Shown here piece after piece: positions 1,405 to 13,200 of a stretch of DNA of 64,000 nucleotides; position 1 is the first letter of the stretch; each line of letters opens with the position of its first letter. The notes under the pieces were generated by a model. That model had not been told where the DNA came from. It was given only the letters and a program-made list of their open reading frames with translations, and did not search any database. The translations under genes were made by a program, and so were the position numbers. This DNA comes from Chitinophagaceae bacterium. GTDB taxonomy: Bacteria > Bacteroidota > Bacteroidia > Chitinophagales > Chitinophagaceae. The stretch is from positions 1 to 64,000 of the forward strand of contig CANHCY010000006.1 in NCBI GenBank assembly GCA_947459295.1, in the 5' to 3' direction.

Positions 1405-1785
1405 ATGTCAGAAGATTTTATCAATATATCAAGAAGTTTAGACACCATAACATTACCACAGGTGGCTGAAAAAATAAATGTCAAAGACATTGATTCAGCT
1501 AAGAAATGGCTAAATGACAAGGGTATTCGAATTCATGATTTTCCTAAAACGAAGTATGTCTACCAAATTGAGGTAGATAGCGAGATTGATAAGCCTTTTG
1601 TTCAACTACTGCGGAATAAATATCCAGACAAATGGAAGGACCATTATCGTGATGTAGTCAAAGATATTGCGGTTTATAATTTAACAGTTAAACTTTTGGA
1701 AAACGAGGTCTCCCCTATTCCGAGAGTTAAATGCTCCAAAATCAATAAAAAAGACCAAGAGCGATATAAAAAATTATTAGAATGA
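1405..1785 (+). CDS. Hypothetical 126-residue protein, possible excisionase-like DNA-binding N-terminus
   Basis: Not assigned to a family. The N-terminal part (about residues 15-50) reads LPQVAEKINVKDIDSAKKWLNDKGIRIH and ends in a YVYQIEVD strand, which resembles the winged helix of MerR/excisionase-type proteins (helix-turn-helix then a short wing). The stop overlaps the integrase start as ATGA at 1782-1785, so the two are translationally coupled. A small DNA-binding protein coupled to a tyrosine recombinase fits a recombination directionality factor; this is inference from context and a loose motif. Confidence 0.5.
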   Translation: MSEDFINISRSLDTITLPQVAEKINVKDIDSAKKWLNDKGIRIHDFPKTKYVYQIEVDSEIDKPFVQLLRNKYPDKWKDHYRDVVKDIAVYNLTVKLLENEVSPIPRVKCSKINKKDQERYKKLLE

Positions 1786-3095
1786 AAAAACTAACTCTCC
1801 CCAAAAACCCACATAAAGGACTTAAGATATTCTGTAGGACTTGCAGAGTAGATAATAGCAAGTGCAAGCATTTTGACAGACAGGTTTACCGAGTAAGAAT
1901 TCACGTTCCAGGCACGAGAAATTCTACTAAATCATATTATTTGGAAGCAGAAAATTACAACTCTGCTGTAATTGAATGTGCGCTAATCGAGAAAGAACTA
2001 ATTCAAAATGGTTTCGAAAAAGTCAAACAAACAGATTCAGACAACCTTTCAGATTACAGCCTTGCAGATGCAGTTGTAAAGTACCGTGAGTATATGTCAG
2101 GCGAATCCAAATACGCCCATTTAAAAAAGAACATATCGCAAGGGCATATTGACGAATGTGTAAGATTTTGCTGGAAATTAGTTGAAAATGTGGCTCTATT
2201 AAAGAATATAAAACGAACAAGGCCCAGTGACATAAAAACTGAAGATGTTTCGAATTTCTATTTATGGGCCGAAGAAAACTACTCATCGAAAACCTTCAAT
2301 AAGTGTTTTATTGCAGTTCGAGCATTCTTTGAATTTTTAATTGAGATCGAAAACATCGAAATGAAAAATCCATTTAGAAAATTCGTTCCAAAGATTGTTA
2401 CACCATCTGCCATTGATATTATTACAGAGGACGAGTTTAATCAGATATTATGTGCCGTTGACACATTCACTCCATTCATAAAACTTGGGGGTAAGGGTGA
2501 AAAGAAAAATATGTTTAAACCATTTTTAAAAGACGGATTCAAATTATTTCTTTTAACTGGTGGTAGAAGAGAAGAGGTAGTTAACCTAAAATGGTCTGAT
2601 ATATATAGCACTCCTCAAGGAGTTAAACTATTCATCATTGACAACCTAAAAGTAAAAAGGGCAAAAAAGAATAATAAAGAGTACAAGAAATATATTGCTA
2701 TAAACGCAGACCTCGAAGCTTTCCTAACTGAATTAGGAATGAATGATAAATTGGGAAAAGATGAATACATTTTAGTGCCAGAAAGGAATAAAAGCACATA
2801 TGCTATCATGAATGAATTAAGTAAAGGCTTCACGCACTATAAAAACGGTGCAGGAATAACAAAAGATATTAGTCTAAGTAACCTACGCAAAACCTATTTA
2901 ACATGGCACCATCAAGTTTTAGGTGACGATACCGGACTTGTTAGCTCTCACTCTACCACACAAGTTTTAGAAAAATATTACATTGATCCAAAGGTTTTAA
3001 CCGCAATAGAAATATCAGCTTTGAAGGTTCGAGTATTTGGAAAAAGTGAGGAATCTCATGACACAATTCATGACACAATTCATGACACAGAGTAA
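1782..3095 (+). CDS. Tyrosine recombinase / phage-type integrase
   Basis: A 437-residue site-specific recombinase. The catalytic domain occupies about residues 215-420: the first Arg box (LTGGRREEVVNLKWSDI), the beta-hairpin Lys region (LKVKRAKKNNKEYKKY), the second Arg box (SNLRKTYLT), the His of SSHSTTQ and the nucleophilic Tyr in LEKYYID. The usual His of the H-x-x-R box appears to be Ser. An N-terminal Cys-rich stretch (CRTCRVDNSKCKHF) precedes an arm/core-binding region. The last residues are a tandem HDTI repeat encoded by 12-bp repeats. The gene ends 62 bp from the 3' end of a tRNA-Met gene, the classic position for an element integrated at a tRNA, so it probably drives integration of the DNA to its left. 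Confidence 0.9.
   Translation: MKKLTLPKNPHKGLKIFCRTCRVDNSKCKHFDRQVYRVRIHVPGTRNSTKSYYLEAENYNSAVIECALIEKELIQNGFEKVKQTDSDNLSDYSLADAVVKYREYMSGESKYAHLKKNISQGHIDECVRFCWKLVENVALLKNIKRTRPSDIKTEDVSNFYLWAEENYSSKTFNKCFIAVRAFFEFLIEIENIEMKNPFRKFVPKIVTPSAIDIITEDEFNQILCAVDTFTPFIKLGGKGEKKNMFKPFLKDGFKLFLLTGGRREEVVNLKWSDIYSTPQGVKLFIIDNLKVKRAKKNNKEYKKYIAINADLEAFLTELGMNDKLGKDEYILVPERNKSTYAIMNELSKGFTHYKNGAGITKDISLSNLRKTYLTWHHQVLGDDTGLVSSHSTTQVLEKYYIDPKVLTAIEISALKVRVFGKSEESHDTIHDTIHDTE
3057..3092 (+). repeat. Three tandem 12-bp repeats at the integrase 3' end
   Basis: Two exact copies of CATGACACAATT (3057-3068, 3069-3080) and a third diverged copy (CATGACACAGAG, 3081-3092) form the last codons of the integrase and encode HDTI HDTI HDTE. 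In-frame 12-bp units add four residues each, so the number can change without breaking the gene. Confidence 0.85.
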
Positions 3096-3137: not shown

Positions 3138-3157
3138 GTTTTCAACACTTTCCAGTG

Positions 3158-3231
3158 TAGCGAGAATGGGACTTGAACCCATGACCTCAGGGTTATGAAT
3201 CCTGTGCTCTAACCAACTGAGCTACCTCGCC
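3158..3231 (-). tRNA. tRNA-Met (CAT anticodon)
   Basis: Read on the minus strand, 74 bases fold as a tRNA: acceptor stem GGCGAGG with TCTCGCT (G-U pairs at both ends), D arm AGCTC...GAGCA, an anticodon stem-loop with loop TTCATAA (anticodon CAT) and a T arm ATGGG-TTCAAGT-CCCAT. The discriminator is A and CCA is not encoded. The body resembles elongator tRNA-Met, but an Ile tRNA with modified CAT cannot be excluded by eye. Its 3' end points toward the integrase and is the likely attachment site. Confidence 0.92.
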
Positions 3232-4520: not shown

Positions 4521-5153
4521 ATGATTACCAAAGAACTATTAAAAAGCCTATTCCCTAGTTTAGAAGAAGGTTTGTACGACGCAATGCTTGAGCATGCCGA
4601 AATAAAAGAATTTCCGGCAGGTACCTCACTACTAAAAGTGGGACAAAACATTAGATCTACGATGATGGTTGTGGAAGGCACCGTTAAACTCTATCAAGAA
4701 GATGAAGAAGGTGACGAGTATTTCATGTACTATATATCACCAGGTCAGGCATGCGCCGTTTCCATGGTATGTAGTTTTCAAGCCGAACAAAGTCAGGTGC
4801 TTGCTAAAGCCCTCACCGATGTTACACTTTTATCGATACCCATAACATTTATGGATAAATGGCTCAGCGAATTTAAAAGCTGGCACTACTTTGTCATTAA
4901 AACCTACCGTACCAGATACGAAGAGCTTTTAAAAACAATAAACGAAGTGGCATTTAAAAATATGGATGAGCGCCTAGAATTTTACCTCAAAAAACAAGTG
5001 GCAAAATTTGGCCCCATCCTTAAATTAACCCATCAAGAAATTGCTTCCGATCTTAACAGCTCTCGCGAAGTAATTAGCCGCCTCATGAAAAAAATGGAAA
5101 AAAACGGATGGATTGTATTACACCGCAATAGTCTTGAATGGATTAAAAAATAA
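4521..5153 (+). CDS. Crp/Fnr family transcriptional regulator of the sulfur locus
   Basis: A 210-residue regulator with an N-terminal cyclic-nucleotide-binding-like beta-roll (about 20-115), a dimerisation helix (about 115-145) and a C-terminal winged helix (about 165-205). The recognition helix carries R182, E183 and R187 (SREVISR), the same R-E-x-x-x-R triad that reads GTGA in E. coli Crp. It lacks the N-terminal Fe-S cysteine cluster of Fnr but has Cys78 and Cys84 in the beta-roll. It is convergent with the sulfur operon, and GTGA-N6-TCAC sites occur at 11210-11225 and 11728-11743. I infer that it controls this locus, possibly sensing a sulfur species through the Cys pair. Confidence 0.9.
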   Translation: MITKELLKSLFPSLEEGLYDAMLEHAEIKEFPAGTSLLKVGQNIRSTMMVVEGTVKLYQEDEEGDEYFMYYISPGQACAVSMVCSFQAEQSQVLAKALTDVTLLSIPITFMDKWLSEFKSWHYFVIKTYRTRYEELLKTINEVAFKNMDERLEFYLKKQVAKFGPILKLTHQEIASDLNSSREVISRLMKKMEKNGWIVLHRNSLEWIKK

Positions 5154-5175
5154 GCTACCACTAATGTGGTAACTT
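5152..5175. terminator. Hairpin across both convergent stop codons (crp-like gene / yeeE)
   Basis: TACCAC (5156-5161) pairs with GTGGTA (5166-5171) around a TAAT loop, extended by three more pairs past one mismatch. The hairpin covers the regulator stop on the plus strand and the permease stop on the minus strand. On the minus strand it is followed by a T-run (complement of the A-run before 5151), which fits an intrinsic terminator for the six-gene operon. Confidence 0.6.
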
Positions 5176-5646
5176 ATCTCTAAAATATCCGTACGTCCAA
5201 GTACCTGCAACGGCACTTGCTATCACTACTAATATCGCGTAAAAGCCTGCACCAATATGTGCAAATAATGGACCAGGGCATGCACCCGTTAAAGCCCAAC
5301 CAAGTCCAAACAACAAGCCACCATATACTTGACCCTTGTTAAATTCTTTATCGGCAATTACAATTTTTTCGCCGTGGATGGTTTTTACATTAAATTTCTT
5401 AATTAAAAAAACACTAATCGCACCTACCACTACTGCTGTGCCTATTACTCCGTACATGTGAAAGCTTTGTAGTCTAAACATTTCCTGAATTCTAAACCAA
5501 GAAATGATTTCGGCCTTCACAAATACGATTCCAAAAATTAAACCCACAATAGTATACTTTAAATTATACCAACCTGGGTGTTGTTGTTCCGATGCATTTA
5601 CGCATGCTGTATTGCTATCTATATTTTGTACTTTTTCGTTGTTCAT
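5161..5646 (-). CDS. YeeE/YedE-type half permease (second of pair)
   Basis: A 161-residue integral membrane protein with about four hydrophobic segments. The conserved GWALTGACPGPLFAHIGAG motif carries the Cys typical of YeeE/YedE permeases, which in characterised members import thiosulfate through a line of cysteines. It is about half the length of a single-chain YeeE and lies 10 bp downstream of a second half-size copy, so the pair probably makes one transporter. The residues before the first membrane segment (about 1-25) are polar and look cytoplasmic. Thiosulfate as cargo is inferred from the family and from the thiosulfate enzymes in the same operon. Confidence 0.85.
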   Translation of the reverse strand: MNNEKVQNIDSNTACVNASEQQHPGWYNLKYTIVGLIFGIVFVKAEIISWFRIQEMFRLQSFHMYGVIGTAVVVGAISVFLIKKFNVKTIHGEKIVIADKEFNKGQVYGGLLFGLGWALTGACPGPLFAHIGAGFYAILVVIASAVAGTWTYGYFRDKLPH

Positions 5647-5656
5647 TGTTCTGTTT

Positions 5657-6217
5657 TTATAAAGATAAAATCCAAGGTAAAATAATGTTGGCCATTAAAA
5701 AGCCACCTGCCATAAAACAAATAGTTGCCACTAAAGATGGCCATTGTAAATTACTAAGTCCCATAATAGCATGACCCGATGTACAACCGCCTGCATAACG
5801 CGTACCAAAGCCTACTAAAAAGCCGCCTATCACCATAATAATAAAACCTCTAGCTGTAATTAGCGCTTCAAAACTAAATAGTTCTTTAGGTAACATATAA
5901 CTGTAATCCGTTAAGCCATAACCCGCTAACTCGCTTTGTAAAGCCGGACTCACTGCAATAGGTGCATCTGTCATTAAAAAATAATTGGCAATAAAAGCAC
6001 CTGCAAAAATACCACCTACAAAAAAGAAATTCCATATCTCCTTTTTCCAGTCGTACTTAAAAAATTTAATGTTGGCCGGAAAACAAGCAGCACATACATG
6101 CCTTAGGTTAGAAGAAATACCAAATGTTTTGTTTCCTAAAATTAAAAGTGCGGGTACAATAAGCCCAATTAAAATACCGGCTACATACCAGGGCCAGGGT
6201 TGAATAATTTGTTCCAT
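5657..6217 (-). CDS. YeeE/YedE-type half permease (first of pair)
   Basis: A 186-residue inner-membrane protein with about five hydrophobic segments. It holds the family motif GFGTRYAGGCTSGHAIMGLS, with the Cys-Thr-Ser-Gly-His loop, and a second Cys pair in HVCAACFPAN near residue 40. In characterised YeeE proteins such cysteines relay thiosulfate across the membrane; here the two halves are on adjacent genes. It lies 29 bp downstream of the TsdA-like cytochrome gene and is in the same minus-strand operon. A role in bringing thiosulfate or another reduced sulfur species into the cytoplasm is inferred from family and context. Confidence 0.88.
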   Translation of the reverse strand: MEQIIQPWPWYVAGILIGLIVPALLILGNKTFGISSNLRHVCAACFPANIKFFKYDWKKEIWNFFFVGGIFAGAFIANYFLMTDAPIAVSPALQSELAGYGLTDYSYMLPKELFSFEALITARGFIIMVIGGFLVGFGTRYAGGCTSGHAIMGLSNLQWPSLVATICFMAGGFLMANIILPWILSL

Positions 6218-6246
6218 CTTGTTTGTTTTTTTTTATTATTGATTGT

Positions 6247-7221
6247 TTATTTTTTATAAAAATTTTTGATGGGTTTGTATGGCCCATATTTATGCTCAGT
6301 TTCTGAAAAATTATCGGCGTAAGGTCCAAAAGCAAAATCTAGTGGCTTTTTATCGTATTTAGGCCAGTCTTTAGATTGATCTTTATGCGGGCGGGGCTGG
6401 CTGTTTACATAAGCAGCCACATCCCAACATTCTTCTTCCGTTAATGTTGGATTGGCATGAGAAGCAACCGCAAAAGGCATATTGTTTTTTACATAGCCTG
6501 CAAAATTGCTAATCCTATAAAGTCCTGCGCCATCATTGTAACTATGTGGTCCCCAAAGTGGTGGATACGCATACTCTATTTCATCAGGTGTTAATTGCCC
6601 CTCACCATTAGCGCCATGGCAACTTACACACTGCGCTGTATATATCACCTGCCCTTTTTTAGGGTCAGCGGCGCGGTCTAAATAGGCTAATTTTTCAATG
6701 CCGGAACCGTGGGGCTTTTGCCCTTTTTCTACACCCTGTCCAATCCATTTGATATATGCATACATTGCTTTAAACTCACGGCTATTACTATCTACGGCCG
6801 TACCATTTAAACTTCTTTCCATACAATCGGCAACACGCTTGTAAATACTTTCTATTTGTCCACTACGGTCTCTAAATTTTGGATACGTCGAAAAAACGGC
6901 TGCATAATTATTACCCCATGCTTTACCTCCTGCTTGCAAGTGACAGTTCTGACAGTTCATACCATTGGTAATTTGTGCCACGCTACCCTTAGGACCTAAA
7001 TATTTTGCCGTATGCGCAATTAAATCTTGACCATAAATTACAAGTTTACGCTCTTCACCACTAACCGTATTATCAGCATAAATACTTGGCGCCAACCAGG
7101 TACTATCTGTTACGGCAAGGCTGTTGTCCATTTTAAAAATATCGCCTTTAATAAAGCTTACCATAAAATAAAGTAACGCCAACGCTGCAAGGCCAATAAT
7201 TACGAGATATTGTTTTTTCAT
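6247..7221 (-). CDS. tsdA: Dihaem c-type cytochrome, TsdA-like thiosulfate dehydrogenase
   Basis: A 324-residue protein anchored or exported by one N-terminal hydrophobic segment (residues 4-24). Two haem-attachment sites are seen: C90-x-x-C93-H94 and C198-x-x-C201-H202. Between them DCMERSLNG (Cys133) matches the segment that supplies the unusual axial Cys ligand of the catalytic haem in TsdA; a Met (M248 in NNMPF) is placed to ligate the second haem. TsdA joins two thiosulfates into tetrathionate, passing electrons to the respiratory chain, or runs in reverse. It sits between the SoxB-like gene and the YeeE pair. The call rests on the Cys motif and domain order; direction of catalysis is unknown. 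Confidence 0.82.
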   Translation of the reverse strand: MKKQYLVIIGLAALALLYFMVSFIKGDIFKMDNSLAVTDSTWLAPSIYADNTVSGEERKLVIYGQDLIAHTAKYLGPKGSVAQITNGMNCQNCHLQAGGKAWGNNYAAVFSTYPKFRDRSGQIESIYKRVADCMERSLNGTAVDSNSREFKAMYAYIKWIGQGVEKGQKPHGSGIEKLAYLDRAADPKKGQVIYTAQCVSCHGANGEGQLTPDEIEYAYPPLWGPHSYNDGAGLYRISNFAGYVKNNMPFAVASHANPTLTEEECWDVAAYVNSQPRPHKDQSKDWPKYDKKPLDFAFGPYADNFSETEHKYGPYKPIKNFYKK

Positions 7222-7232
7222 TGCAAATAATA

Positions 7233-8933
7233 TTATCTAAAGTTATACGTCGTTCCTTCTAGTTGCGTTAATAAAGTAGCCGGCTTATCGGTAGCGGTGG
7301 TTCTGCCTTCTAGTTTTGGCGCCACAAGCGGTGTAGCCGCTAAATACTCCGTTATTACATCATGTAAACTATTTTGTGTTGCCACCGGGTTGCTTACTTT
7401 TTCTATTCTACAAAGTGTATCGTTAGGATCGCCTTCTCTTTCACAAGCCACTATTGTATACATTTTATTTTTATCAAGTGGCTGTCCCTTAATTTTTACG
7501 GTGTTAACGCGCTGTCCCTTTGGTTTTCCAATGGTACAGTTTACTTCCATACCCGCAAAACGCACAAACCATCCGCCAAAACGCTTACTTGGGTCTGGTG
7601 CAAATGCATTTTCAAGTTCTTTTTCTAACCACTCAAGTATTTGTTGCCCGGTTACTTCGCCTTTTTTTGCCGTAGAATCTACGGGTAACATATTCCATAA
7701 AAACTCGTTGGTGATGGCTACTTTTTGAGCACCCTGAGGCACCGCAAGTGGTTGACAAAACCTAAACCCATTGCTAAGCGCAATGTCTGGTTTAAACTTC
7801 CACATGACAGCGTCGGTAATTAAATTATCCATGGGTGTTTCTAAAACAAAATAACGCACCAGCGGAGTAGACGTGTATCCAATTACTTTTTGCAAAGCAT
7901 CTTGATAGGGTGCTGCTGCTTTTTGTACCAGCGCCAATACATTTTTATTGGCTGGATATTTTACCGGATCTACATCCAGTAGTTCGTACTGATAGGTATC
8001 TATTTTTCCTTCTTTTACCGTGATGTCTAATTTTCCTAAAAAAGATCCAAAGGCACCACACTCGACCACTTTGGTATATTTTCCTTGTATCGGAACACGC
8101 ACTCTTTCGTGTGTATCAGCACCTAAAATAAAATCGGCACCAGCAACGCTTGGGTCATTGGCAAGTCCTACTTGTTGCGCAAGTCCCATATGTGTTACAA
8201 TAAAAATAATACCACAACCTTCTACTTCTTTCAAATATGTAATGTACTTAGCTACATTGTCTGTGGCATGCGTAAAACCAATACCCTCGCTATATGCAGG
8301 GGATTGACGCTTAGGTACCAAATGATCGGTAAAACCAATAAAACCAACTTTTGCGCCTGCAATATATTTAATCCAATAGGGCGGATAAATTAACGTGCCA
8401 TTATCTGCATCTTTTGTTTTGTGCCACATATTGGCGCAAATTTTTGCTGCACTCGAATGCCCCATATCATAGAGCATTTTCTTTTTCTTGTAAACTACTT
8501 CCCAGTTACCCGGAAGTATTAAATCGTAGTTAAACGCATTCATGAGCGGAATAAGCGCTTCTCCTTCCGACATCGACGCTACGCCATGGCCATGAAAATA
8601 ATCGCCACCATCGTATAAAATATTTTGCGGATGCTGCACGCGTAACGCATCTATCATGGTTTTAAGTACCGCAAGTCCGCCACGCTTTTTATATACAGGC
8701 TTTTCATTTTCCCAAAAAAATTCGTCGTGGGTATGAATTTGCGCGTGCAAATCGGTAGTAATAAAAATACTGAACTGATTGGGCGCCTGTTTGCTTGTGC
8801 CTGCGTTTGCATTTGCGTGTTCAGTATTAGCGTCGCTGGCAAAAGCAGCAGATACTGGGCCTATTGCAGCGGGCACGCCCATACCAAGTACGGCAGCGTT
8901 TTTAATAAAATTTCGTCGGTTATTTTTGTTCAT
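7233..8933 (-). CDS. Tat-exported SoxB-like metallophosphatase / 5'-nucleotidase family protein
   Basis: A 566-residue protein with a twin-arginine signal (R6-R7-N-F-I-K, then a hydrophobic stretch to about residue 32), a metallophosphoesterase domain (about 55-290) and a 5'-nucleotidase C-terminal domain (about 350-540). Metal-site motifs are D61-L-H63, D111 in DGGD, N143 in GNWE, H248 in THMG and H275 in GADTH. Trp144 replaces the His of nucleotidases (GNHE), a feature shared with SoxB thiosulfohydrolases, which hydrolyse the sulfone sulfur bound to SoxY. The family GHxH motif is A-D-T-H here, so one expected metal ligand is Asp273. No SoxY is encoded nearby, so the natural substrate is open. 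Confidence 0.72.
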   Translation of the reverse strand: MNKNNRRNFIKNAAVLGMGVPAAIGPVSAAFASDANTEHANANAGTSKQAPNQFSIFITTDLHAQIHTHDEFFWENEKPVYKKRGGLAVLKTMIDALRVQHPQNILYDGGDYFHGHGVASMSEGEALIPLMNAFNYDLILPGNWEVVYKKKKMLYDMGHSSAAKICANMWHKTKDADNGTLIYPPYWIKYIAGAKVGFIGFTDHLVPKRQSPAYSEGIGFTHATDNVAKYITYLKEVEGCGIIFIVTHMGLAQQVGLANDPSVAGADFILGADTHERVRVPIQGKYTKVVECGAFGSFLGKLDITVKEGKIDTYQYELLDVDPVKYPANKNVLALVQKAAAPYQDALQKVIGYTSTPLVRYFVLETPMDNLITDAVMWKFKPDIALSNGFRFCQPLAVPQGAQKVAITNEFLWNMLPVDSTAKKGEVTGQQILEWLEKELENAFAPDPSKRFGGWFVRFAGMEVNCTIGKPKGQRVNTVKIKGQPLDKNKMYTIVACEREGDPNDTLCRIEKVSNPVATQNSLHDVITEYLAATPLVAPKLEGRTTATDKPATLLTQLEGTTYNFR

Positions 8934-8942
8934 GGGGCAGGC

Positions 8943-10346
8943 TTAAAAATGAAAGTTTAAGATAAAATTAAAATGACCCATATCCACTTTATTGATATAA
9001 AACTTGGGGTTATCATACGTATTTCCCGTAGCATCCTTATAAAAATAAATCAGTTGCGCTTCCCATCCCTTCCAAAATCCTGTAAATGCATACCGCATAT
9101 CTAGGTTGTACTGCATATAAGACGGAAAACTATATTTATTAAGTGCATAATTGCTAATATCAGGGAGTTTAAAATATCCTACGCCCATATTAATAGTGAG
9201 CGGTAGTTTTGGTGCGGTATACTTTGTTTTTGCAACATACGCAGATACATCACCCATACCTTCGTTACGCTCGCCCATTAAAAAAGTATAAAACGGATCA
9301 CGCCCCCACTCGCGCGGCATTAAATAACGCCCCTGCTTTGTAATGCGGGTATAATTAAGCGAGTAATCCCAACTATTTATTTTTTGTCCGACCCTAGCGC
9401 CTATTACTACACTGGATTGACCTGGATTAAAATAAGTTTTTGCAGCGTCGTTGTTGCCACCCTTATTAACCACGCTTTGGGTAATTACTTGTAAGCCGTA
9501 ATAATAAGACTGCTTGGCACTTGGCGTTTTGTCTATTTGAAAAAATACGCTGTTAAACATATTGTCTACAAACTGATTCCAGATCTGAATTTTATAATTT
9601 TTGATGCTACCAATTTCTGCGCCAACAAGTGCTACACCACTTGATGTTAATGCATTTTTATAGCCCGATTTTGCTCCGTCAATATTTACCCCAACCGAGT
9701 ATATACCTATAGACTCCGATGTTTTATACCATGCTACCGTACTTCGTGGCGAAAACCTATTAAGCCAACCCGCATAGTATTTATTTTCTTTGTTTTTATG
9801 TTGTATCCAAAGGCCCTGCACTTCGGTAGGACGCATCCTTCCATCTTGCAAATTAATAAACGGTGTATTGAGTAACTGCTTACCTATAGTAATCGTGTTT
9901 TTGTTTTTTTGGTACTGGATATAGAGTTCCTCTAAACGGTCAATATCTGTTTTGTTAGCAGGATCTGTGATATCAAATAAACCAAGCTCGTATCTATTGA
10001 TGGTGCCAGATAAAGGATGTGGCTTTGTCAAATCCGATGAAAACGCGTCGTACACAAAAAATCCACTCACCCCTAGTTTAAGATTGTAAACTGGTTTAGA
10101 AATAAATTGAATACCGCCACCAATGGCCTGCGCATATTCGACATCACTGTTTTTATTAAAATTACTACTAAAAAAACTGCGTAAGTGTCCGTGTAAGGTG
10201 CCCATTTGAAACCGGTACAATAAATTACTACTATCTACCTGCTTACTAGATTTACCCCACAACTTTGGATCTTCGTGCAGCTCTTGGTGCTGCGCATACG
10301 AAAGAGTGGAGCATAATAATAATGCAGCTACAAATAATTTTTTCAT
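8943..10346 (-). CDS. OprD-like outer-membrane porin
   Basis: A 467-residue protein starting at MKKLFVAALLLCSTLSYAQ, a clear signal peptide; a longer frame to 10427 runs into the upstream gene and is not favoured. The rest is a string of alternating-hydrophobicity strands ending in a terminal aromatic residue (HFNFILNFHF), as in 16-18-strand barrels. DGRMRPTEVQGLWI resembles the constriction-loop region of OprD-type porins. Within the operon it is 20 bp after the TauE gene and 9 bp before the SoxB-like gene, so it likely lets small sulfur oxyanions through the outer membrane. Family call moderate, barrel call strong. Confidence 0.75.
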   Translation of the reverse strand: MKKLFVAALLLCSTLSYAQHQELHEDPKLWGKSSKQVDSSNLLYRFQMGTLHGHLRSFFSSNFNKNSDVEYAQAIGGGIQFISKPVYNLKLGVSGFFVYDAFSSDLTKPHPLSGTINRYELGLFDITDPANKTDIDRLEELYIQYQKNKNTITIGKQLLNTPFINLQDGRMRPTEVQGLWIQHKNKENKYYAGWLNRFSPRSTVAWYKTSESIGIYSVGVNIDGAKSGYKNALTSSGVALVGAEIGSIKNYKIQIWNQFVDNMFNSVFFQIDKTPSAKQSYYYGLQVITQSVVNKGGNNDAAKTYFNPGQSSVVIGARVGQKINSWDYSLNYTRITKQGRYLMPREWGRDPFYTFLMGERNEGMGDVSAYVAKTKYTAPKLPLTINMGVGYFKLPDISNYALNKYSFPSYMQYNLDMRYAFTGFWKGWEAQLIYFYKDATGNTYDNPKFYINKVDMGHFNFILNFHF

Positions 10347-10365
10347 AATAATTAATGACTTCCGC

Positions 10366-11163
10366 CTATTGGAAAAATAATTGCTGTGCAAGAATATAAA
10401 GGCCCATGATAAGCACAAACCAACCAAAACCTTTTTTTAGTTTGTTGCCGTCTATTTTTTTACTGAGCATATCGCCAATAAAAATACCGCTAATAGCTAG
10501 TGCCGTTACCGATAACAATAGTGTCCAATCCATGCTGGTATTGCTTACATCACCGGTAAATCCAATCAATGATTTTGCTGCTATAATAAGTAGTGAAGTA
10601 CCTACCGCCTGCTTCATAGGAAGTTTACTTAACATCACAAGTGCTGGTATAATTAAAAATCCACCACCTGCGCCTACAAGTCCTGTAAGCATACCCACAA
10701 GGGCACCTTCTACTAATATAAGCGGATAATTAAATTTTTGCTCACCCGATTCTTCGGCAGCAGCAGCTGGCGTAGAACGTATCATAGAAAAAGAAGCCGC
10801 TACCATCAGCACTGCAAATAGAAGCATCATTAGTAATGACTTTGTAATTTCAATACCGGCAATGGTTCCTAACTGTGTAGGAATGGCAGGGACCAAATAT
10901 TTGCGGGTAGCAAAAACAGCCGCAATAGAAGGAATACCAAAAATGATCGCTGTTTTAATATTTACAAAACCTTGTTTGTATTTTGGCAGGGCGCCTACTA
11001 AACTACTCGCACCCACAATAAATAAAGAATACGCAGTAGCGAGCACCGGTTCTACCCCAAATAAATACACCAGAACGGGTACGGTTAAGATGCTACCCCC
11101 ACCGCCAATAAGCCCCAGTGAGATGCCAATTAAAATGGATGCTAGATATCCAATTATTTCCAT
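10366..11163 (-). CDS. TauE/SafE family sulfite/anion exporter
   Basis: A 265-residue inner-membrane protein with about eight hydrophobic segments and the repeated family motif in each half: LIGGGGSILTVPVL near residue 20 and LVGAGGGFLIIPAL near residue 160. TauE/SafE proteins move sulfite, sulfoacetate or related organosulfur anions. First gene of the six-gene minus-strand sulfur operon; a candidate -7 box (11181-11188) and a Crp-type operator (11210-11225) lie directly upstream. Export of sulfite produced by persulfide oxidation is the likely job by context. Confidence 0.9.
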   Translation of the reverse strand: MEIIGYLASILIGISLGLIGGGGSILTVPVLVYLFGVEPVLATAYSLFIVGASSLVGALPKYKQGFVNIKTAIIFGIPSIAAVFATRKYLVPAIPTQLGTIAGIEITKSLLMMLLFAVLMVAASFSMIRSTPAAAAEESGEQKFNYPLILVEGALVGMLTGLVGAGGGFLIIPALVMLSKLPMKQAVGTSLLIIAAKSLIGFTGDVSNTSMDWTLLLSVTALAISGIFIGDMLSKKIDGNKLKKGFGWFVLIMGLYILAQQLFFQ

Positions 11164-11180
11164 GATTTTTTAATTTGACA

Positions 11181-11188
11181 CAAAAGTG
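11181..11188 (-). promoter_or_regulatory. Candidate -7 box for the sulfur operon
   Basis: On the minus strand this reads CACTTTTG, close to TAnnTTTG. Its final G is 36.5 bp from the centre of the operator at 11210-11225, exactly the distance seen for the other operator and its box. Confidence 0.5.
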
Positions 11189-11209
11189 CCTTTATAAAAA
11201 TAAAAGATA

Positions 11210-11225
11210 GGTGATAAATGTCACC
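11210..11225. promoter_or_regulatory. Crp-type operator upstream of the sulfur operon
   Basis: GGTGATAAATGTCACC is a perfect inverted repeat (GGTGA, six-base spacer, TCACC). It matches the GTGA-N6-TCAC core read by Crp-type recognition helices with R-E-x-x-x-R, which the regulator encoded at 4521 has. It lies between the divergent TauE and DsrE genes, with spacing that favours class II activation of the minus-strand operon. Confidence 0.75.
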
Positions 11226-11275
11226 AACCCAATTTTTACGCCTAAAAAGTATAAAAATGAATTAAATTGTGGGAT

Positions 11276-11719
11276 ATGAAAAACACGATCCTTCTCATAG
11301 CTTTTTGTTTACTCGGTTTTGGCACAACTGCGTTGGCCCAAAACACGAGCGCAACGCATACCCATACAATTACGCACAAAGTAGTGATACAACTAAATAG
11401 CGGTGATACTGCCGCATGGGGTGGCGTTATTGGTAACGTTAAAAACCTCTCTAAAATTTGGCCTAATAATTTGAGTGTCGAAGTAGTGGTGCATGGTAGA
11501 GCCCTCGATTTTTTAGTGGCCGCCAAATCGCATTTGGTAGCAGACGTAGAACAGCTGTCAAAAAAAGGCGTTGTATTTAATGCCTGCGAAAATACCATGG
11601 GCAAATATGGCATTACCAAGCAAATGCTTATTCCGTCTGTGTTTACCGTACCATCGGGTGTGGGTGAAGTGATTTTAAAACAAGAAGAAGGCTGGAGTTA
11701 TTTAAGGGCTGGTTACTAA
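11276..11719 (+). CDS. Exported DsrE-family sulfur-relay-like protein
   Basis: A 147-residue protein with a signal peptide (MKNTILLIAFCLLGFGTTALAQ) followed by a DsrE/DsrF-like fold: an HKVVIQLNSGD strand-turn, a central VEVVVHGRALDFL strand and helix, and FNAC104ENTM, where family members carry their sulfur-binding Cys. DsrE proteins carry or transfer sulfane sulfur; periplasmic versions are common beside persulfide and thiosulfate genes in Bacteroidota. The ATG at 11276 is preferred over an upstream TTG at 11267 because the signal peptide begins there. It is divergent from the sulfur operon and 89 bp before the persulfide dioxygenase fusion. Confidence 0.85.
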   Translation: MKNTILLIAFCLLGFGTTALAQNTSATHTHTITHKVVIQLNSGDTAAWGGVIGNVKNLSKIWPNNLSVEVVVHGRALDFLVAAKSHLVADVEQLSKKGVVFNACENTMGKYGITKQMLIPSVFTVPSGVGEVILKQEEGWSYLRAGY

Positions 11720-11727
11720 TTTGATAA

Positions 11728-11743
11728 GGTGATATTTGTCACA
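11728..11743 (+). promoter_or_regulatory. Crp-type operator upstream of the persulfide dioxygenase-rhodanese gene
   Basis: GGTGATATTTGTCACA carries GTGA (11729-11732), a six-base spacer and TCAC (11739-11742). Fourteen of its 16 bases equal those of the site at 11210. It lies between the DsrE stop and the next gene, 36.5 bp (centre to final G) from a candidate -7 box. Confidence 0.75.
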
Positions 11744-11764
11744 GTGTAAGGTTTTTTGATGGCG

Positions 11765-11772
11765 CATCTTTG
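11765..11772 (+). promoter_or_regulatory. Candidate -7 box for the dioxygenase-rhodanese gene
   Basis: CATCTTTG, close to TAnnTTTG, 36 bp before the start codon. Its distance to the operator equals that on the divergent promoter. Confidence 0.5.
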
Positions 11773-11808
11773 CAATATCAAAATAACAGAAACTAAAAAT
11801 TTATACTT

Positions 11809-13200
11809 ATGTATTTTCAACATGTTTACGACAAAACCTTAGCCCAAGCGAGTTATTTTATTGGTTGTCAAAAAGCAGGCGTTGCTGCTGTTATAGATCC
11901 AAAGCGCGACGTAGATACCTACCTCGAAATTGCGAAGCAAAACAATATGCAAATCACGCATATTTTTGAAACGCATATCCACGCCGATTTTTTAAGTGGC
12001 TCGCGTGAACTAGCAGCCGTTACTGGTGCTAAAATGTATTTATCTGACGAAGGTGGTGAAGGCTGGCAGTATGAATTTGCCCACGAAGGTTTAAAACATG
12101 GCCAGCAACTGATGGTTGGTAATTTAAAAATCGAGGTTTTACATACCCCAGGACACACGCCAGAAAGCATTAGCTTTTTATTAACCGATACACCAGCAAG
12201 TAAAGAGCCTGTGATGTTATTTACCGGCGACTTTGTGTTTGTAGGAGATATTGGACGCCCAGACTTATTAGAAAAAGCAGCTGGCATGGTGGGTACACAA
12301 GACAAGGGTGCTGAAGAGATGTATCAGTCTATTAACCTGTTTGCAAATCTTCCAGAATTTATTCAAGTATGGCCGGGCCATGGCGCAGGATCTGCGTGTG
12401 GTAAAGCTTTAGGCGCTGTACCTAGCACAACAGTAGGTTACGAGAAAAAAAGAAACTGGGCATTTAGCTATGGCACCAACAAAGCTGGCTTTATTGATTT
12501 CTTATTAACAGATCAACCAGAGCCGCCAAAGTATTTTGCAAAAATGAAGGAACTCAATAAAGTAGATCGTCCTTTGTTAACAGAAGTACCTACCATTAAA
12601 GAATTATCAGCTGCTGAATTAACAGCAGCGATGGACAAAGGTGTTAAACTCATCGACACTAGAAACAAACTAGATTTTGAAAAAGGATTTATTCCGGGAA
12701 GTATCAATATTCAGGGTAACAATTCTTTTGCTACTTGGATGGGTTGGTTTGTAAATTACAACGAGCCGTTTATTTTATTAGCAGCCCCTAGTCAAATGGA
12801 TGATTTAACCAGAAAATTAATGCGTATTGGACTCGACAATATCCATGGTTTTGTGGACGCTGCTAAAATTAACGAACTAGCCAACGGTCCATTATCAACT
12901 TCTACTATGGTTAATATTAGTGATGTAAAAGCAAATACAACAGCACAGGTAATTGACCTTAGAGGTGCTGCAGAATTTAACGCTGGACATATTGCAGGTG
13001 CAACAAATGTTTTTGTAGGTACATTATTACAAAACCTTGCTAAAGTTCCAAAAGACAAACCCGTTATTATTCATTGCCAAGGTGGTGATAGAGCGGCTAT
13101 TGGCTACTCATTACTTGTAAAAGAAGGTTATACCAACGTTTCTAATTATAGCCCAGGTATAAATGAGTGGATTAAAGAAGCGCAACCACTTGTGAGCTAA
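11809..13200 (+). CDS. CstB-like persulfide dioxygenase fused to two rhodanese domains
   Basis: A 463-residue cytoplasmic fusion. Residues 1-240 are a metallo-beta-lactamase fold of the ETHE1/persulfide dioxygenase type: H56-x-H58-x-D60, H116 in HTPGHT, D141 in TGDF and H191 in WPGHG. Residues 265-350 are a rhodanese domain without an active Cys (the loop reads LLAAPSQ). Residues 370-463 are an active rhodanese with C423 in HCQGGDRA. This order is that of staphylococcal CstB, which oxidises low-molecular-weight persulfides and releases thiosulfate, feeding the thiosulfate enzymes encoded alongside. A Crp-type operator lies 66 bp upstream of the ATG. Function inferred from architecture. Confidence 0.9.
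   Translation: MYFQHVYDKTLAQASYFIGCQKAGVAAVIDPKRDVDTYLEIAKQNNMQITHIFETHIHADFLSGSRELAAVTGAKMYLSDEGGEGWQYEFAHEGLKHGQQLMVGNLKIEVLHTPGHTPESISFLLTDTPASKEPVMLFTGDFVFVGDIGRPDLLEKAAGMVGTQDKGAEEMYQSINLFANLPEFIQVWPGHGAGSACGKALGAVPSTTVGYEKKRNWAFSYGTNKAGFIDFLLTDQPEPPKYFAKMKELNKVDRPLLTEVPTIKELSAAELTAAMDKGVKLIDTRNKLDFEKGFIPGSINIQGNNSFATWMGWFVNYNEPFILLAAPSQMDDLTRKLMRIGLDNIHGFVDAAKINELANGPLSTSTMVNISDVKANTTAQVIDLRGAAEFNAGHIAGATNVFVGTLLQNLAKVPKDKPVIIHCQGGDRAAIGYSLLVKEGYTNVSNYSPGINEWIKEAQPLVS

Follow-up and report, generated by a model that had tools for sequence, protein, structure and literature searches.

A putative Crp-controlled locus for thiosulfate and sulfane-sulfur oxidation in a Chitinophagaceae bacterium

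Positions 4521-13200 of a 64,000-nt stretch of contig CANHCY010000006.1 from a freshwater-type Chitinophagaceae bacterium (GCA_947459295.1; this whole stretch is called the window, and coordinates are positions within it) hold nine genes that make up a genuine sulfur locus, conserved in relatives and with predicted regulation, whose catalytic steps are assigned from protein families. We consider it probable that they encode a Crp-controlled module that oxidizes thiosulfate and sulfane sulfur and works without SoxYZ. An earlier note on this DNA had named the nine genes, and all were present as uninterrupted open reading frames (ORFs) in the ORF list of the window, with products matching the named families in Pfam and NCBI family profiles (Table 1). 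Its general reading, thiosulfate and persulfide oxidation with sulfite export, is supported by homology, while details of it changed.

A recurrent gene set and its proteins

The gene set is more than a chance grouping and recurs across Bacteroidota, as judged by the search for gene order in relatives that the earlier note had proposed. We compared the best 80 of 161 related stretches, 43 of which have flanks of at least 8 kb on each side ("well-flanked"). Near soxB-like genes, tsdA was found in 41 of the 43 well-flanked loci, the gene for a metallo-beta-lactamase (MBL) protein with rhodanese domains (MBL-rhodanese) in 36, tauE in 34, and each yeeE half in 30; the profile search counted MBL-rhodanese in 37 and Crp in 23. 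Across all 80 loci, tsdA was present in 73, always on the same strand as soxB-like (73/73) and within 300 bp of it in 56 of the 73.

The SoxB-like protein scored 237.5 bits against the NCBI SoxB equivalog TIGR04486, below its cut-off of 550. In a 50-row tree, the 7 canonical SoxB rows split with 100/100 support from the SoxB-like rows (26 long, 9 short), and the window protein belongs to the separate, Bacteroidota-only long clade. Since this score is below the cut-off, the clade is separate, and SoxY was not found, a canonical SoxB identity was ruled out. Comparison of structure models showed that the protein has the SoxB fold, and by fold and tree it is nearer SoxB than UshA. The SoxB-like label of the earlier note thus holds for fold, tryptophan (see below), and superfamily branch but not for equivalog score or canonical clade; by sequence, the protein is on the same superfamily branch as SoxB, in a clade of its own. 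In a phylum sample, 14 of 296 genomes passed the SoxB equivalog cut-off, all of them Chlorobia-like, and 219-331-bit matches to the SoxB profile occurred in 16 of 296.

The view that the SoxB-like protein acts as a nucleotidase or another phosphoesterase in the periplasm, and merely happens to be encoded in a sulfur cluster, would agree with its superfamily, with the retained Asn of the GNHE motif, and with database names that read 5'-nucleotidase or cyclic-nucleotide phosphodiesterase. However, the catalytic His of GNHE in UshA is replaced by Trp (GNWE), as in SoxB, in 32/32 aligned long-clade rows, and these rows invariantly carry GNWE and GADTH instead of the GNHE and GHxH of UshA-type 5'-nucleotidases. 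Together with the fold, the tree, and the linkage to tsdA, this makes the nucleotidase explanation highly improbable; a plain nucleotidase was ruled out by motifs, fold, and tree. Cysteines 166, 393, 497, and 508 of the window protein are also invariant in the 32 rows. In a Pontibacter plasmid locus (L118), a single cluster contains three paralogues of the SoxB/nucleotidase type, one from each tree branch (long, short, and UshA side), a trio that recalls the three of Erythrobacter flavus.

The cytochrome was confirmed as TsdA-like, with thiosulfate dehydrogenase 4wqc, a TsdA of known structure, as its best PDB match (E 3.6e-44). It has two CxxCH haem sites at 90 and 198, a Cys ligand to haem 1 (Cys133), and Asn247-Met248, with its Met ligand, at haem 2; sites and ligands are kept in at least 95% of 77 aligned rows. 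Its family points to thiosulfate/tetrathionate activity. Had homology searches placed the SoxB-like protein and the cytochrome in unrelated families, the earlier interpretation would have failed; the cytochrome lies within its named family, and the hydrolase shares the branch of SoxB while forming a separate clade. The haem-2 pair is Asn-Met in the bifunctional C. jejuni TsdA and Lys-Met in A. vinosum (PMC5146829).

The resemblance to the C. jejuni haem-2 pair (PMC5146829) would suit tetrathionate respiration, with TsdA acting as tetrathionate reductase and the other genes processing the resulting thiosulfate. The SoxB-like partner, however, points to the oxidative direction. Moreover, the MBL dioxygenase family consumes O2, and we regard tetrathionate respiration as very unlikely.

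SoxY (PF13501) was searched for in 31 genomes or records, including three positive controls that all matched (3/3), and was not found in any of the 28 carriers of SoxB-like genes (24 genomes and 4 plasmids), a search that did not extend to SoxZ, SoxAX, or SoxCD. It was likewise not found (0/60) in an earlier search of relatives, which was run without a matching positive control; the conclusion rests on the controlled search.

The MBL-rhodanese protein matched PDB entries 3tp9 (E 7.2e-116) and 3r2u (E 2.3e-113), the latter of which we take to be CstB, over nearly its whole length. It has full-length MBL, pseudo-rhodanese, and rhodanese domains with the active-site cysteines Cys197 and Cys423, which presumably sit at the CstB positions. 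Each YeeE half keeps one cysteine in the alignment (Cys123 in yeeE_A and Cys145 in yeeE_B). PmpAB consists of two half-YeeE proteins with one conserved Cys each (PMC11582611), and YedE1E2 is reported to import zero-valent sulfur and to require both cysteines (PMC10812762). By this analogy, a zero-valent-sulfur importer of the PmpAB/YedE1E2 type is a better reading of the half-YeeE pair than a thiosulfate permease. The porin scored 24.8 bits against the OprD Pfam profile, just below its cut-off of 25; its structure model (predicted local distance difference test score, pLDDT, 83.7; 18 strands) has the Occ barrel fold, with OccK1 2y2x as top match (E 3.4e-20) and Occ porins as most of the top matches. 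The motif C[ENQ]x[STA] is present in 37/37 DsrE proteins of the relatives, 31 of which pass a crude signal test. In two loci (L039, 9166-9903; L041, 5174-5929), a single ORF whose start resembles a signal peptide encodes a rhodanese-like stretch followed by DsrE.

Table 1. Genes and predicted operators between positions 4521 and 13200 of the window
Feature	Position	Strand	Evidence and remarks
Crp-family regulator	4521..5153	+	PF00027 40.6 bits, PF13545 37.2 bits, both over cut-off
yeeE_A, half YeeE/YedE, DUF6691, N-terminal half, PmpB-like	5161..5646	-	Pfam; Cys123 in GACPGP
yeeE_B, half YeeE/YedE, Sulf_transp, C-terminal half, PmpA-like	5657..6217	-	Pfam; Cys145 in GGCTSGH
tsdA, putative dihaem thiosulfate dehydrogenase, SoxA/TsdA cytochrome	6247..7221	-	Pfam, PDB match, alignment
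soxB-like, 5'-nucleotidase-fold SoxB-like hydrolase with Tat-type signal	7233..8933	-	Metallophos and 5_nucleotid_C, tree, model
OprD/Occ-type outer-membrane porin	8943..10346	-	Sub-cut-off Pfam, structure model
tauE, TauE/SafE family exporter	10366..11163	-	PF01925 149 bits; first in six-gene run
Predicted Crp operator GTGATAAATGTCAC	11211..11224		47 bp before tauE start, 42 bp before dsrE start
dsrE, secreted DsrE-family protein	11267..11719	+	Pfam; Sec-signal-like start; conserved Cys107
Predicted Crp operator GTGATATTTGTCAC	11729..11742		66 bp before MBL-rhodanese start
MBL persulfide-dioxygenase domain with two rhodanese domains, CstB-like	11809..13200	+	Lactamase_B and Rhodanese; Cys197, Cys423

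Six of the genes (tauE, porin, soxB-like, tsdA, yeeE_B, and yeeE_A) form a tightly packed minus-strand run from 11163 down to 5161, on which the plus-strand crp (4521-5153) converges; dsrE and then the MBL-rhodanese gene follow on the plus strand from 11267. Since strands and gene layout differ in this way, the locus is, judged by layout, three transcription units rather than the single operon assumed earlier. For the porin, the ATG at 10346 is the most probable start; the longer ORF in the ORF list begins at a TTG inside tauE. Outside the locus, a phage-type integrase gene (1782-3095; phrog_1, E 3.6e-24) adjoins a tRNA-Met gene (3157-3231), with further phage-like proteins at 21-1007, and this region resembles one end of an integrated element that borders the sulfur locus.

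Most of the set is also found on named plasmids of Runella rosea and R. slithyformis, and much of it on Pontibacter and Hymenobacter plasmids; a Hymenobacter plasmid combines a short-clade SoxB-like gene with an ArsR regulator. Of 37 genomes in the window's genus, 3 encode a full-length homologue, and one more has a piece at a contig end. Identity is only 47-48% for the homologues of genomes G011 and G017, and the tree places the G011 protein with Runella plasmid proteins, a pattern that suggests horizontal spread.

Predicted operators and candidate sensor cysteines of Crp

The Crp protein has the recognition helix SSREVISR at residues 180-187. Its own genome has three sites with the palindrome GTGAY-N4-RTCAC: two in the window, at 11211 and 11729, and one at C17:29044, which is 58 bp upstream of a rhodanese gene with a thioredoxin gene behind it. 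Three near relatives (G368, G369, and G370) share the rhodanese-gene site, and in G368 the palindrome also occurs (L156, position 2859) 50 bp upstream of a peroxiredoxin-like gene. In a Lacibacter genome, one site (L158, position 11713) is flanked by two ORFs named by eye: an SQR-like one and an FAD-disulfide-reductase-like one that has a rhodanese-like match.

The 80 loci contain 110 palindrome sites, compared with 3 for the reversed pattern. For 75 of these sites, a cluster gene starts 10-120 bp downstream (median 51 bp), against a random mean of 5.1 and a maximum of 13 in 500 draws. When palindromes were searched for freely before the genes of the loci that encode an SRE-helix Crp, GTGA-N6-TCAC ranked first (54 gene regions, 8.5-fold); the same search for the SRV-type group gave no outstanding motif. 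Sites were present in 20 of 22 loci with an SRE-helix Crp (L054 and L057 being without) and in 0 of 17 with SRV, a difference whose significance the Fisher p of 3e-9 overstates because the loci are related. Among stretches without Crp, 21 of 44 have sites. Within the SRE group, an upstream site was found for tauE (13/16), yeeE_B (13/20), MBL-rhodanese (9/17), and soxB-like (8/22), with lower counts for tsdA (3/21) and dsrE (2/12). Autoregulation of crp was rejected, the palindrome preceding 0 of 22 SRE-group crp genes. Taken together, these data predict a Crp regulon, new here, with GTGAY-N4-RTCAC about 50 bp before cluster genes.

Cys78 and Cys84 of Crp are kept in 40/40 aligned Crps. We compared 29 other Crp-family proteins from 8 chosen genomes (30 of 41 matches retrieved), and both cysteines were present in 3 of the 29, which were also the best scorers. 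Three of the four best-scoring other Crps neighbor rhodanese or MBL-rhodanese genes, one of these three lacking the second Cys, and the fourth has none of the tested genes nearby. Cys78 and Cys84 are thus a candidate sulfur sensor.

A proposed route for thiosulfate and sulfane sulfur

In the module that we propose, the Occ-type porin would let thiosulfate pass the outer membrane, and periplasmic TsdA would join two thiosulfates into tetrathionate, passing electrons to a c-type cytochrome and a terminal oxidase, as expected from its family. By analogy with E. flavus, the SoxB-like protein may cut the terminal sulfonate of tetrathionate, or of its protein-bound form, to give sulfate and sulfane sulfur, which secreted DsrE may hold. 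The half-YeeE pair would import sulfane sulfur into the cytoplasm, where the CstB-like persulfide dioxygenase-rhodanese would convert it to sulfite and thiosulfate, and sulfite could leave the cell via TauE. Crp is predicted to bind the palindromes about 50 bp before several cluster genes and probably senses sulfane sulfur via Cys78/Cys84.

We offer more tentatively, and consider less likely than not, the combined proposal that secreted DsrE replaces SoxYZ as the cysteine carrier for the SoxB-like protein and that the Crp, through the conserved Cys-x5-Cys of its effector domain, is a new kind of sulfane-sulfur sensor commanding the regulon. A role for DsrE as universal carrier is weakened because 19 of the 43 well-flanked loci are without DsrE by profile.

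Much of the locus would also suit detoxification, in which excess persulfide is removed with no useful energy gain and TsdA and the SoxB-like protein are minor partners: a persulfide-stress set usually comprises a CstB-like protein, TauE, a half-YeeE pair, and rhodaneses, and the predicted regulon includes the rhodanese-thioredoxin pair and, in a near relative, the peroxiredoxin-like gene. However, persulfide removal by itself does not require the close, same-strand association of tsdA with soxB-like seen in the relatives, and we consider detoxification alone unlikely.

Several observations weigh against the oxidation module. The gene set is not fixed, with dsrE in 24, the porin in 23, and Crp in 21 of the 43 well-flanked loci; all seven partners occur in only 15, and together with Crp in 11. 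The chemistry of the SoxB-like protein could differ, since the long clade keeps Asn143 of nucleotidases and has GADTH where both SoxB and UshA have GHxH. TsdA enzymes work in both directions, and the Asn-Met pair is of the bifunctional C. jejuni type (PMC5146829). The palindrome is not enriched over whole genomes (3 sites versus 10 for the reversed control in the organism's own), and the signal is therefore local. Finally, COX1 was not found in the organism's own draft genome, most likely because the draft is only 83% complete; it was present in the nearest genome and in 11 of 14 overall.

With an oxidation module of this kind, many Bacteroidota of fresh water and soil would oxidize thiosulfate without a Sox carrier, a capacity that searches built around canonical SoxB overlook. 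The locus lends itself to a genetic test of how a SoxB-type hydrolase acts without SoxYZ, and the regulator and predicted operator named here are directly testable.

Relation to known sulfur oxidation systems

The earlier note considered the arrangement undescribed. TsdA, SoxB, and an MBL-rhodanese without SoxYZ have been published in E. flavus, and tsdA with soxB is also reported in Bacteroidetes from a genome search (PMC7608252); some sediment genomes have SoxB without other Sox genes (PMC12345210). The part of the claim that concerns the version with Crp and porin in Bacteroidota stood, in that the literature searched, mostly by title and abstract opening, yielded no Bacteroidota cluster of this make-up and no Crp regulon for one.

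Canonical Sox systems (Paracoccus and Rhodobacter plasmids and Chlorobia-like f36 genomes) share with the window the SoxB fold, the Trp of the metal-site motif, and a SoxA-related cytochrome domain, whereas the window has no detected SoxY, a SoxB score under half the cut-off, and a SoxB-like protein of a separate clade. CstB (PDB 3r2u) has the same MBL, pseudo-rhodanese, and rhodanese domains, from which the window differs by its Gram-negative setting and Crp control. PmpAB/YedE1E2 likewise place a half-YeeE pair, one Cys each, beside a persulfide dioxygenase (PDO, Blh-type) and TauE (PMC10812762, PMC11582611). The window has Crp rather than an ArsR-type regulator and adds tsdA, soxB-like, and the porin. 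An ArsR-type regulator reportedly accompanies the Serratia PmpAB system, and ArsR is annotated beside Bacteroidota and proteobacterial clusters. The DsrE3A of Metallosphaera cuprina, a DsrE-family Cys protein found with TusA, can carry thiosulfate from tetrathionate (PMC4175335); it is cytoplasmic and archaeal, whereas the window DsrE is secreted and its cluster is without TusA.

The closest likeness is to the TsdA-SoxB-SdoA/SdoB pathway of E. flavus 21-3, which mutants show to work without SoxYZ, whose cluster is thiosulfate-induced, and whose SoxB is proposed to act on tetrathionate (PMC7608252). The window also holds tsdA, a SoxB-type gene, and an MBL-rhodanese gene together, with SoxY not found. 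It differs by phylum, by a SoxB-like protein of a separate Bacteroidota clade (compared with the description rather than the sequences of E. flavus), and by its Crp regulator, Occ porin, secreted DsrE, and half-YeeE pair, as set against the part of the E. flavus cluster considered. Since TsdA, SoxB, and a sulfur dioxygenase without SoxYZ were published for that marine proteobacterium, the window set, with catalytic steps assigned by family, appears to be a variant of the E. flavus-type pathway rather than the first of its kind.

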